48,561 nt of DNA from Sharpea azabuensis DSM 18934. Its GTDB lineage: Bacteria; Bacillota_I; Bacilli_A; Erysipelotrichales; Coprobacillaceae. The notes below the pieces were generated by a model, which did not search any database, was not told the DNA's origin, and saw nothing but the letters and a program-made list of their open reading frames with translations. Location: contig NZ_JNKU01000016.1 in NCBI RefSeq assembly GCF_000702165.1, positions 1 through 48,561 of the forward strand. The letters run 5' to 3'. Made by a program: the position numbers and the translations under genes. This document shows, one piece after another, positions 379-19,819 of the stretch (its first letter is position 1; every line of letters starts with the position of its first letter).

Positions 379-407
379 AAAAAAGACAAACCACTAGGAT
401 TTGCCTT
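379..407 (-). terminator. Intrinsic terminator of the crh-like gene
   Basis: On the minus strand AAGGCAAA(T)CC pairs with GGTTTGTCTT around a TAGT loop (one bulged T) and runs into six T. It begins about 11 bases after the stop codon of the HPr-like gene. Confidence 0.75.
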
Positions 408-417
408 CAAGCACCTG

Positions 418-681
418 CTAAATGATTTCTTCATCAGCTAAGATGCGTTTAATTTCTTTAATAGCCCTTTCTTCATCAGGCCCTTCTGCTACAATTTCTA
501 CAGCTGCCTTATTAGGAATTCCCAATGACATCACACCCATCATTGATTTTAAATTTACTGTGCGATTACCGTATGTCAAAGAGAGATTACTTGTAAAGCT
601 AGAAACATTATTGACAATATTGTTGATTGGTGTTGCATAAAGACCGTTAGGATTATTAACTGTGAAAGAATACTTTTCCAT
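418..681 (-). CDS. HPr-family protein lacking the PTS histidine (Crh-like)
   Basis: 87 residues, the normal HPr/Crh length, with an SD (GGAGGGG) before ATG. Seen: the PTS site that normally reads GLHARP is GLYATP, so His15 is Tyr15 and Arg17 is Thr17. The regulatory site is intact: Ser46 in NLKSMMGVMSLG. Family knowledge: HPr needs His15 to carry phosphate from EI to EIIA, whereas Bacillus Crh lacks it and acts only as a CcpA corepressor after HPr kinase phosphorylates Ser46. Inference: this protein is a regulatory HPr paralogue, not a PTS phosphocarrier, and another ptsH must exist elsewhere in the genome. It stands alone, with its own promoter, a cre box and a terminator. An automatic call of ptsH would be misleading. 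Confidence 0.85.
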   Translation of the reverse strand: MEKYSFTVNNPNGLYATPINNIVNNVSSFTSNLSLTYGNRTVNLKSMMGVMSLGIPNKAAVEIVAEGPDEERAIKEIKRILADEEII

Positions 682-694
682 AATTTCCCCTCCT

Positions 695-714
695 TTGTAT
701 TCGCTTACATTATA
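695..714 (-). promoter_or_regulatory. -10 box and overlapping cre (CcpA) site of the crh-like gene
   Basis: Minus strand: TATAAT (709-714) runs into ATGTAAGCGAATACAA (695-710), which fits the cre consensus WTGNNARCGNWWWCAW at every position. The site covers the -10 edge and start point, just before the SD at 686-692, a position where CcpA would repress. No good -35 is visible. Confidence 0.7.
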
Positions 715-768
715 TCATATTTTACTATAATATTGTATTAAAGGTTATACAAAAAGGTGATAAACAAG

Positions 769-1230
769 CTATTTTACAGGTACACAATGTTTATCGTTGA
801 TTTCTTTCACTTTGTTGACACGACGACGATACTTCTCTTCCATGAGTGGTTCTGTTGTCAGCCAAGTCTTGACAATTTCACTAGCCATCATATCACCAAT
901 AATCTTTGCCCCAATGCAAAGAACATTTGAATCAGTATGTTCTCTAGCTAGCTTCGCACAAAATGGATCCTGGCAAACAGCGGCATAGATGCCATAAATC
1001 TTATTTGCAATTAGCGCACTGCCATAGCCCACGCCATCAACAAAAATACCGCGATCACATTCACCTTTAGCTACTGCTAGCGCTGCTGGATAAACATAAT
1101 CAGAAAGATCGCAGGATGTATCATCATAAGTTCCAAAATCAACAACTTCATACCCCTCTGATTCTAAATATGCCTTGATTTCATTTTTCATGCGTGTTCC
1201 CGCATGATCATTAGCCATTGCTATTTTCAT
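769..1230 (-). CDS. RpiB/LacA/LacB-family sugar-phosphate isomerase
   Basis: 153 residues, typical for the family. Starts MKIAMANDHAG, the conserved N-terminal strand and phosphate loop (cf. FGCDHVG in E. coli RpiB), with SD GGGGAT. Family knowledge: these enzymes interconvert aldose and ketose phosphates (ribose-5-P/ribulose-5-P, or galactose-6-P/tagatose-6-P) through an enediol base, a Cys in ICGTGVG in E. coli RpiB. Seen here: that loop is VDGVGYG, with Asp65 replacing Cys. Other conserved parts remain: ANK at 75-77 and the DxNVLxxG segment near 100-107. The mycobacterial enzyme uses a carboxylate base, so the protein may be active, but its substrate cannot be assigned. No sugar operon surrounds it; leuS lies upstream beyond a terminator. 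Confidence 0.8.
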   Translation of the reverse strand: MKIAMANDHAGTRMKNEIKAYLESEGYEVVDFGTYDDTSCDLSDYVYPAALAVAKGECDRGIFVDGVGYGSALIANKIYGIYAAVCQDPFCAKLAREHTDSNVLCIGAKIIGDMMASEIVKTWLTTEPLMEEKYRRRVNKVKEINDKHCVPVK

Positions 1231-1336: not shown

Positions 1337-3736
1337 TTATTTAGGTACAACAATATTAACAATCTTGTTAGGTACAACAATGATTTTCTTAATTTCTTTA
1401 CCTTCAGTAAACTTCTTGACGTTTTCTTCTGCTAAAGCTATTTCTTTTACCTTTTCCTGATCTTCGTCTTTCGCAACAGTAATCTTAGCTCTCAGCTTGC
1501 CATTAACCTGTACAGCCATTTCTACTTCCGCAACAACAAGCTTGCTTGGATCATATGTAGGCCATTTAGCATAAGAAATACCTTCATCATGTCCAAGTTT
1601 CTGCCACATTTCTTCACCTACGTGAGGGGCAATACAGCTTAGCATCTGGACTAAGCCTTCAGCATAGCCTTTATATAATGTCTTTGCTTTATAAGCTTCG
1701 TTAACAAAAATCATCATCTGTGAAATTGCTGTATTGAAGGCAAGTGCTTCATAATCTTCGGTAACCTTCTTCACTGTAGCATTGTAGATATAGTCTAATT
1801 CACCATCATTTTCATTGACAACCTTATCGCTCTCCACAATCAAACGGTATACACGATCCAGCCAGCGACGGCTACCTTCAACGCCAGTTTCGCTCCAAGG
1901 CTTGCTTGCATCAAGAGGACCCATAAACATTTCATAGAGTCTTAATGTATCAGCTCCATATGCTTCCACAATTTCATCAGGATTGATAACATTGCCACGA
2001 GACTTTGACATCTTGACCCCATTAGGTCCAAGAATCATACCCTGATGGAATAATTTCTGGAATGGTTCTGGTGAGCTAACAACACCAATATCATATAAGA
2101 ACTTATGCCAGAATCTTGCATATAATAAGTGCAATACGGCATGTTCAGCACCACCAATATATAAATCAACTGGCAACCAATGATCAAGAAGACGCTTTTC
2201 ACCAATCTCATCATTATTATGTGGATCAATATAGCGAATATAATACCAGCAGCTGCCTGCCCATTGAGGCATTGTATTGGTTTCACGAACACCCTTGACA
2301 CCATCAATCTCCACATTTAACCAATCAGTAACACGTGCTAATGGTGATTCTCCTTCTTCTGAAGGCATATAGTTATCTGTTGCAGGTAATTCAAGTGGTA
2401 AATCCTGTTCATTAACGGCACGTAATGTACCATCACTCATATGGATAATAGGAATTGGTTCACCCCAGTATCTTTGACGAGAGAATAACCAGTCTCTAAG
2501 CTTATAAGTAATTTTCTTTTCACCACAATGATGTTCTTCAAGCCATTTGATCATCGTATCAATAGCTTCCTGCTTACCCATACCATTTAAGAAGTCAGAA
2601 TTGATATGCTTGCCATCACCAGTGAAAGCTTCTTTTTCAATATCACCACCTTCTAGAACAGGGATGATAGGTAAGTCAAATTTCTTTGCGAATTCATAGT
2701 CTCTTGTATCATGGGCTGGAACGGCCATGATTGCACCAGTACCATAAGTAATTAAAACATAGTCTGAAATCCAGATAGGAATCTTCTTACCATTAATTGG
2801 ATTAATTGCATAAGCCCCTGTAAAGACACCTGTTTTATCTTTATTTAAGTCCGTACGCTGTAAATCACTCTTTGTCGCAATTTCTTTCTTATAGGCAGCA
2901 ACAGCCTCTTTTTGTTCTGGTGTTGTGATTTCATCAACAAATGGATGTTCTGGTGCCATTACGCAATAAGTTGCACCAAATAATGTATCGCATCTTGTTG
3001 TGAACACTGTAAATTCTTTATTTGTGCCATCGATTTTGAAAACAACATCAGCACCAACAGATTTACCAATCCAGTTACGCTGCATTTCTTTTGTCGATTC
3101 TGGCCAGTCAATATCATCTAGACCATCAAGAAGCTTTTCAGCATAATCTGTAATCTTTAAGACCCACTGTCTCATCATCTTACGATAAACAGGGAAGCCG
3201 CCACGTTCACTCTTGCCATCAATAACTTCTTCATTCGCAAGTACAGTGCCTAAGCCAGGACACCAGTTTACAGGCATTTCTGAGATATAGGCAAGTCCAG
3301 CATCATACATTTTCTTGAAAATCCATTGTGTCCATTTATAGTAATCCGGATCACATGTACGAATTTCACGATCCCAGTCATATGAGAAACCTAAGCTCTT
3401 AATCTGACGTCTAAAGTTATCAATATTTTTATAAGTAAATTCTGCAGGATGATGACCTGTTTTAATAGCAAACTGCTCAGCTGGCAAACCAAAGGCATCA
3501 AATCCCATTGGATGAAGGACATTAAAGCCTTGCATACGTTTATAACGGCTGACAATATCCGTAGCTGTATAACCTTCAGGATGACCTACATGAAGTCCCT
3601 GTCCACTTGGATATGGGAACATATCAAGGGTATAGTATTTAGGTTTCGAGAAGTCATTCGTATCTGTTTTGAATGTTTTGTTTTCTTCCCAGTACTTTTG
3701 CCATTTTGGTTCAATCTGTTTGTGATCAAAAGACAT
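1337..3736 (-). CDS. leuS: Leucyl-tRNA synthetase
   Basis: 799 residues, normal for bacterial LeuRS (about 800-880). It charges tRNA-Leu with leucine in the cytoplasm. Seen: class I HIGH signature HVGH at residues 49-52 inside [17 protein letters not shown] at about 575, an editing CP1 insertion between them with the TTRxDTLFG motif near 250, and a C-terminal anticodon-binding region. SD GGAGG precedes ATG. The gene is monocistronic with its own promoter, a T-box leader with a leucine specifier and a terminator, so expression should rise when uncharged tRNA-Leu accumulates. Confidence 0.98.
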
Positions 3737-18545: not shown

Positions 18546-18574
18546 ATAATAATATAAATTGTAAGCGATTACAA
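18546..18574 (-). promoter_or_regulatory. Orphan promoter with perfect cre (CcpA) box
   Basis: Minus strand: -35 TTGTAA (18569-18574), 17-base spacer, -10 TATTAT (18546-18551). A near-palindrome TTGTAAGCGATTACAA (18559-18574, plus-strand reading) fits WTGNNARCGNWWWCAW at every position and overlaps the -35. It points into the gene-free stretch 18240-18540. Confidence 0.55.
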
Positions 18575-18599: not shown

Positions 18600-18625
18600 G
18601 AAAAAAGTAGGATGCAATCCTACTT
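18600..18625 (-). terminator. Terminator of the SARP-like gene
   Basis: Minus strand AAGTAGGAT-TGC-ATCCTACTT then T-run. The TAG stop codon (18620-18622) lies in the upstream arm. Confidence 0.88.
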
Positions 18626-19795
18626 TGACATTTTCTTGATGTCCTCATAAACATAGGAAATATCAGCTCTATGGTATTTGTCAAGTTCATAGAGCTTCTT
18701 AGTAATGCGTTCCATAATCTTAGGAATATACATTTCACTAGCTTCAATTAAAATCAAATAATGATCTTTTCCTGCCACACTTATACAATCCTCAGAGCGT
18801 AAGCCTGCTAACAATGCATTACGCAGCAAAGACATCGTTGATTCAAGGATACGATCCACCAAATCTTCATTCAGGCCTTTGTTATGTGGTGTCAGTTGCA
18901 CATCAATGACATAGACGTCTTCATTACTACGCTTTATCCTTCTTGCTTCAAGCTGACAAAGTCTTGTAAATTCATCATTGGAACATTCAAAAGCAGTTTC
19001 TTCATTATCTTCAGCTAGTATTTCTTTAATATACGCAAAACCCTGCGTCCTTTTTTTGGCATCTAACAGTTTTGTAAGTTTCTCGCTAGGCTTTATTCCA
19101 AGATTCTTCGCAAAAAGCTTCTCGATTTGAGCATAGTACTTTCTTGCAATATCTTCATGCCCTTCATCCATATAACGTGAAATACCATAATAATATACAC
19201 TCTCATTATATGGATCAATTTTCAAAAATTTCTTATAGATTTCTTCGAACTTATTATCAATCTTATTTTCATAATAATATTTAATTAAGGAAAGCATAAC
19301 AGATAAAGCTTGTGTTTCAAGATATTGGTTCTCAGAATCTATCCAGTCATCCCCAGCAAGCATCGGTAACATTCTCCCCTTATAAAGAGCACTTGCCTTT
19401 TCATAAAATGTATGAACATCCTGCTTATCAGCAAATTTTGCACATTTAAGTGTATCAATGAATTCTTCTGCATCAACCAATACATCAATATTAGGATTCC
19501 AGTAATAAGAGCCTTTGGCATTCAAGATAAATTGCTCATCACCAAAGCTTTTCTTCAAAACACATCTGACCCTATATACCAATGCCTTTAAAGCATTAAT
19601 GGGATCATTAGAATCATGATCATTGAACATAATATCAGCAGTTGTCGTATTGAAGATTTGTTTCTTTCTATTCAATATCAAATACGTCAGTAGTTTTGTG
19701 ATTTGTTTTGACCGATAATCGTGATAAAGCAGTTTTTTTCCATTATATTCGATCTCAAATGATCCAAGAAGACTTACCTTCATTTTGTCGCCCAT
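18620..19795 (-). CDS. SARP/BTAD-type regulator with degenerate GGDEF-like tail
   Basis: 391 residues from ATG 19793-19795, six bases after SD GTGAGG; a GTG at 19807 is part of that SD. N-terminal OmpR-like winged helix (about 1-100, starting MGDKMKVSLLGSFEIEYNGK, with DPINALKALVYRVRCVLKK as the recognition-helix region). Then a BTAD helical-repeat domain (about 105-255: DAEEFIDTL, YKGRMLPML, DPYNESVYYYGISRYM). C-terminal segment (about 285-391) has the secondary-structure pattern of a GGDEF domain, but the signature is AGKDHYLIL, so cyclase activity is not expected. Own promoter and terminator. It lies directly downstream of divIB, so a role in envelope or growth control is conceivable but unproven. 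Confidence 0.78.
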   Translation of the reverse strand: MGDKMKVSLLGSFEIEYNGKKLLYHDYRSKQITKLLTYLILNRKKQIFNTTTADIMFNDHDSNDPINALKALVYRVRCVLKKSFGDEQFILNAKGSYYWNPNIDVLVDAEEFIDTLKCAKFADKQDVHTFYEKASALYKGRMLPMLAGDDWIDSENQYLETQALSVMLSLIKYYYENKIDNKFEEIYKKFLKIDPYNESVYYYGISRYMDEGHEDIARKYYAQIEKLFAKNLGIKPSEKLTKLLDAKKRTQGFAYIKEILAEDNEETAFECSNDEFTRLCQLEARRIKRSNEDVYVIDVQLTPHNKGLNEDLVDRILESTMSLLRNALLAGLRSEDCISVAGKDHYLILIEASEMYIPKIMERITKKLYELDKYHRADISYVYEDIKKMSK

Positions 19796-19819
19796 ATTAT
19801 GCCTCACCTCATGTATTCT

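Follow-up and report, generated by a model that had tools for sequence, protein, structure and literature searches.

Close to the start of the window, the whole stretch of 48,561 nucleotides from Sharpea azabuensis DSM 18934 that was analyzed, lies hprY, an intact minus-strand gene for an HPr paralogue. The gene, its signals, and its upstream neighbors are:

382 to 408, minus strand, intrinsic terminator directly 3′ of the hprY stop codon
418 to 681, minus strand, hprY, intact 87-aa HPr-fold paralogue with Tyr15, Thr17, and Ser46; stop codon at 418 to 420
544 to 546, minus strand, hprY codon 46, TCA (Ser), invariant in 34 of 34 distinct orthologues
637 to 639, minus strand, hprY codon 15, TAT (Tyr) replacing the phosphocarrier His, invariant in 34 of 34 distinct orthologues
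687 to 694, minus strand, ribosome-binding site AGGAGGGG, read from the sequence
694 to 710, minus strand, cre (putative CcpA operator) ATGTAAGCGAATACAAA, a perfect match, −29 to −13 from the ATG
709 to 717, minus strand, extended −10 element TGATATAAT
769 to 1230, minus strand, rpiB-type sugar-phosphate isomerase gene, the upstream neighbor of hprY, also present in S. porci
1337 to 3736, minus strand, leuS, next upstream of rpiB, named from a reading of its translation

The translation of hprY contains MEKYSFTVNNPNGLYATPINN followed by VNLKSMMGVMSLGIPNKA, and carries Y15, T17, P18, K45, S46, and M48 in canonical HPr numbering. The protein scored 80.7 bits against Pfam PTS-HPr (PF00381; cut-off 23) and 74.5 bits against TIGR01003 (cut-off 47.9), placing it in the HPr family and bearing out an earlier note that had read this stretch as an HPr paralogue with Tyr15, Thr17, and Ser46. 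The fold predicted by AlphaFold2 was the open-faced β-sandwich of HPr (pLDDT 93), and the model superimposed on Enterococcus faecalis HPr (1ptf) with a TM-score of 0.97. Against the PTS phosphocarrier HPr model NF010352, HprY reached 85.7 bits, under the cut-off of 110, and the phosphocarrier active-site pair of His15 and Arg17 is missing from the protein, which has Tyr15 and Thr17 in these positions. Ser46 of canonical HPr is the residue phosphorylated by HprK.

A PF00381 search of the S. azabuensis genome returned four matches, including hprY. The genome encodes a canonical HPr (L001, contig C22) with GLHARP and Ser46, so hprY is not its only HPr-like gene. It also encodes HprK (C33) and a CcpA candidate (C2), completing the set of second HPr, hprK, and ccpA that the earlier note had proposed searching for. 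Across the family, HprK was found in 42 of 43 genomes, the exception being a genome that is 72% complete. The best CcpA candidate, L037, scored 244 against TIGR01481, under the cut-off of 442, and has the gene order murC-ytxH-ccpA and a IYDMGAVAVRMITKML motif; we take this motif, together with the synteny with Bacillus ccpA, to identify it as the CcpA orthologue. Another paralogue (L004:1495-1752, on C64) adjoins a PTS EIIC-EIIA gene and differs from HprY in retaining His15 and Arg17 (GMHARP) with Lys at position 46. This His-only HPr is the mirror image of the Ser-only HprY, and it has relatives in G011, G019, G020, G027, and G031. An HPr domain without Ser46 (GVHARP) was also seen at the N-terminus of a D-2-hydroxyacid dehydrogenase (L002:1450-2799, on C1). 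HPr-matching frames of 430–460 aa, comparable to this fusion, are present in several other family genomes, and a literature search for such a fusion gave no description.

We then examined whether the Tyr15 form occurs elsewhere. A scan of genome contigs with HprY gave a sole match, an orthologue in Sharpea porci with 87% identity carrying Tyr15 and Lys17, and dN/dS between the two Sharpea copies was 0.12. Within Coprobacillaceae, the Tyr15 form was present in 34 of 43 genomes and 15 of 20 genera; 32 of these carriers were recovered with a DNA pattern, and the other two were G009 (with Thr47) and G006 (with GLYLTP). An assembly error, or an oddity of one genome, is therefore ruled out as the source of Tyr15. 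Gene decay toward a pseudogene, or a mistake in sequencing, would fit the loss of the catalytic His and the absence of the gene from 9 of the 43 genomes; we give this explanation almost no credence, as both Tyr15 and Ser46 are invariant in 34 sequences, dN/dS is low, the extended −10 and terminators are conserved, and the HPr fold is confidently predicted.

Outside Coprobacillaceae, the same DNA pattern detected no Tyr15 form in 251 further genomes from the order, and none was found in 721 distinct genomes sampled from the order, class, and phylum. The phylum sample consisted of genomes of the same class only, and so probably did not reach Bacillales and Clostridia. A broader pattern, allowing any non-C first base in codon 15 and hence blind to Gln15, revealed no additional HPr of the His-less, Ser46 type within the order. 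It gave nine extra matches, one in the family itself and eight in a sister family, which we read as chance. In an HPr/Crh tree of 76 rows and 87 columns, with a long Crh branch and bootstrap values that had not settled, the Tyr15 proteins were monophyletic (94/91, 97% of bootstraps) and joined the His15 HPrs of Coprobacillaceae, and Bacillus Crh grouped apart from them, with the HPrs of Bacillus and Staphylococcus. This placement, and the absence of the Tyr15 form from the 721 genomes outside the family, argue for a single loss separate from that of Crh. The Tyr15 form thus appears to have arisen once, in the ancestor of Coprobacillaceae, after duplication of HPr and independently of Crh. Searches of the open-access literature turned up no account of a Tyr15 HPr.

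The likeness to Crh is nonetheless close. Like Bacillus Crh (PDB 1mo1 and 1zvv), HprY has the HPr fold, a replaced His15, and a retained Ser46 neighborhood, and each protein exists beside a canonical HPr, HprK, and CcpA. The PDB sequence of Crh reads GLQARP, confirming the Gln15 attributed to it by the earlier note, with Arg17 retained, whereas HprY reads GLYATP, with Tyr15 and Thr17. Against the Crh model NF010354 (cut-off 123), HprY scored 56.9 bits and Crh itself 165.1. The two fall in separate clades, at a resolution limited by the 87 columns and the long Crh branch, and HprY also differs from Crh in its gene context, which is leuS-rpiB, mraY, or nrdD. Membership of the Bacillus Crh family is ruled out by the tree and the NF010354 score, in agreement with the suggestion that Tyr15 marks a separate loss of PTS function. 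By these tests, HprY is a conserved Crh-like protein outside the Crh family. Its closest tree relatives are instead the canonical HPrs of Coprobacillaceae such as L001, with which it shares 55% identity and the same Ser46 loop; it departs from them by the replacement of His15 and Arg17, by changes at positions 21, 27, 47, and 51, and, in Sharpea, by a promoter of its own that is overlapped by a cre.

Across the 34 Tyr15 sequences, Y15, K45, S46, and M48 never vary, and all but one have G49. Arg17 is replaced in 33 of the 34, position 17 being Thr in 23, Ser in 4, Lys, Gly, or Ala in 2 each, and Arg in 1 (L088). The loop around Ser46 that HprK is expected to read is thus retained, and the active-site pair is gone. 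In most of the 34, Ile21 is changed to Glu or Lys, Ile47 to Met or Leu, and Met51 to Leu, substitutions predicted to alter the face by which canonical HPr contacts its partners. Arg17 has been linked to CcpA signaling (Horstmann 2007, by its title as cited in PMC4591507). The loss of Arg17, together with the changes at 21, 47, and 51, may therefore have weakened binding to CcpA and perhaps affinity for HprK. The proposal that HprY is a dedicated CcpA cofactor is accordingly supported only in part: in its favor are the retained Ser46 loop and the presence of a CcpA orthologue, and against it are the replacement of Arg17 in all but one of the sequences and the changed residues at 21, 47, and 51.

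Two features went beyond the earlier note, namely the family-wide spread of the Tyr15 form and the cre in front of hprY. This cre is the only perfect match in the window to the stricter consensus WTGNNARCGNWWWCAWW (0.13 expected), and S. porci has ATGAAAGCGGATACAA at the equivalent position. The cre consensus quoted in PMC8359418 is matched perfectly by the hprY cre in both Sharpea species. Genome-wide, there were 13 perfect matches versus 1 in a reversed control, and one of the 13 lies upstream of a BglG-type antiterminator/PTS operon. A second, palindromic cre, TTGTAAGCGATTACAA, was observed in the window at 18559-18574, just downstream of a minus-strand ORF at 18620-19807. In a scan of 36 HPr paralogue genes, 31 had TGNTATAAT upstream, against 0.38 expected from shuffled sequence. 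In both Sharpea species, the last part of the −10 element of this extended −10 promoter falls within the cre. The position of a perfect cre over the promoter in both species suggests that CcpA probably represses hprY in Sharpea; no cre was found upstream of the Tyr15 genes checked in other genera.

A terminator hairpin also lies 3′ of hprY in S. porci and of most orthologues, and its position just past the stop codon indicates that hprY is probably monocistronic. Gene order leuS-rpiB-hprY is conserved in Sharpea, and elsewhere the context varies by genus, with mraY-murD in four genera and nrdD in five. An mraY-murD or nrdD operon as a clue to function is weakened by the extended −10 and hairpin that most orthologues have of their own, and because hprY is mostly monocistronic its varied neighbors say little about what it does. 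No partner-indicating gene was seen near hprY in the contexts across genera. In several genera, hprY is adjoined by a gene for a 117–121 aa protein (MFGFGKKIEIK...; L095:3381-3743 and L082:2613-2963), which had no NCBIfam or Pfam match. In the window, a minus-strand fragment at 3-233 is the start of an ORF (MAKNKTEQKQQYMICALLDDLVPEDHLVRKLDRYVDW) that is also found at the end of contig C64 (L004:1893-2093). This fragment, which had no Pfam match, is probably a transposase at which the contigs break.

The mechanism that we propose builds on what the analysis established, namely that the protein is intact and conserved, that it arose once, and that HprK, CcpA, and the cre accompany it. We consider it probable that HprY is a PTS-dead, Ser46-only signaling protein under HprK/P, Crh-like but of single, independent origin. 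With His15 changed to Tyr and Arg17 lost, HprY would no longer carry PTS phosphate, and at high glycolytic flux HprK/P would phosphorylate its Ser46. By analogy with Bacillus Crh, the two forms of the protein would bind a regulatory partner differently. In Sharpea, CcpA would repress hprY via the cre when preferred sugars are present, so that the level of HprY would peak once catabolite repression is relieved. Since the Ser46 loop is retained but Arg17 and the nearby surface are changed, the partner may be CcpA, through an altered contact, or another protein. Among single candidates, CcpA, bound through a changed surface, is the most likely, a choice that we hold tentatively and at somewhat under even confidence. 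The loss of Arg17, the restriction of the cre to Sharpea, and the lack of a partner from gene context all count against the mechanism.

The same observations can be arranged differently. HprY could act mainly in its unphosphorylated form, at low flux, by binding an enzyme or regulator, with Ser46 phosphorylation as the off state and CcpA upstream rather than downstream. CcpA-type repression in Sharpea would make HprY scarce exactly when HprK is active, the loss of Arg17 favors such a role, and there is a precedent in unphosphorylated Crh, which binds and inhibits MgsA (PMC13130090). MgsA, however, was found in only 7 of the 20 Coprobacillaceae genera, being absent from the other 13 and from both Sharpea genomes. 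This sets HprY apart from the setting of Crh and rules out MgsA as its target in Sharpea; an unphosphorylated HprY would thus need another target, and none emerged from gene context. As the cre is also not conserved outside Sharpea, we regard this arrangement as unlikely, at perhaps one chance in several.

Expression bears on a further alternative. Between the two Sharpea species, synonymous divergence was 0.017 for canonical hpr (L001 and L045) and 0.43 for hprY, which suggests that hprY is less strongly expressed; the 8 kb surrounding canonical hpr are only 86% identical between the species. A decoy drawing HprK or CcpA away from canonical HPr, and so dampening catabolite repression, would retain the Ser46 neighborhood and lose the PTS residues, as HprY has, and repression of its gene by CcpA would form a damping loop. 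Such a decoy would need high expression, at odds with the synonymous divergence, and would have no need of an invariant Tyr15; we find it highly improbable.

If the proposed Ser46 signaling role is true, a PTS-dead, serine-only HPr has been invented at least two times, and this would be a recurrent way to split regulation from sugar transport. Sharpea has no MgsA, which is a described Crh target other than CcpA, so setting Crh and HprY side by side would reveal the purpose of a stand-alone Ser46 protein. A bolder reading, which we think doubtful, is that the invariant Tyr15 is itself functional, as a partner contact or a phosphorylatable residue, and that the partner is not CcpA, in which case HprY would be a third HPr-based regulator, belonging to one gut family. 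The bacteria that carry the Tyr15 protein are common anaerobes of the gut, and their carbon control has received little study.
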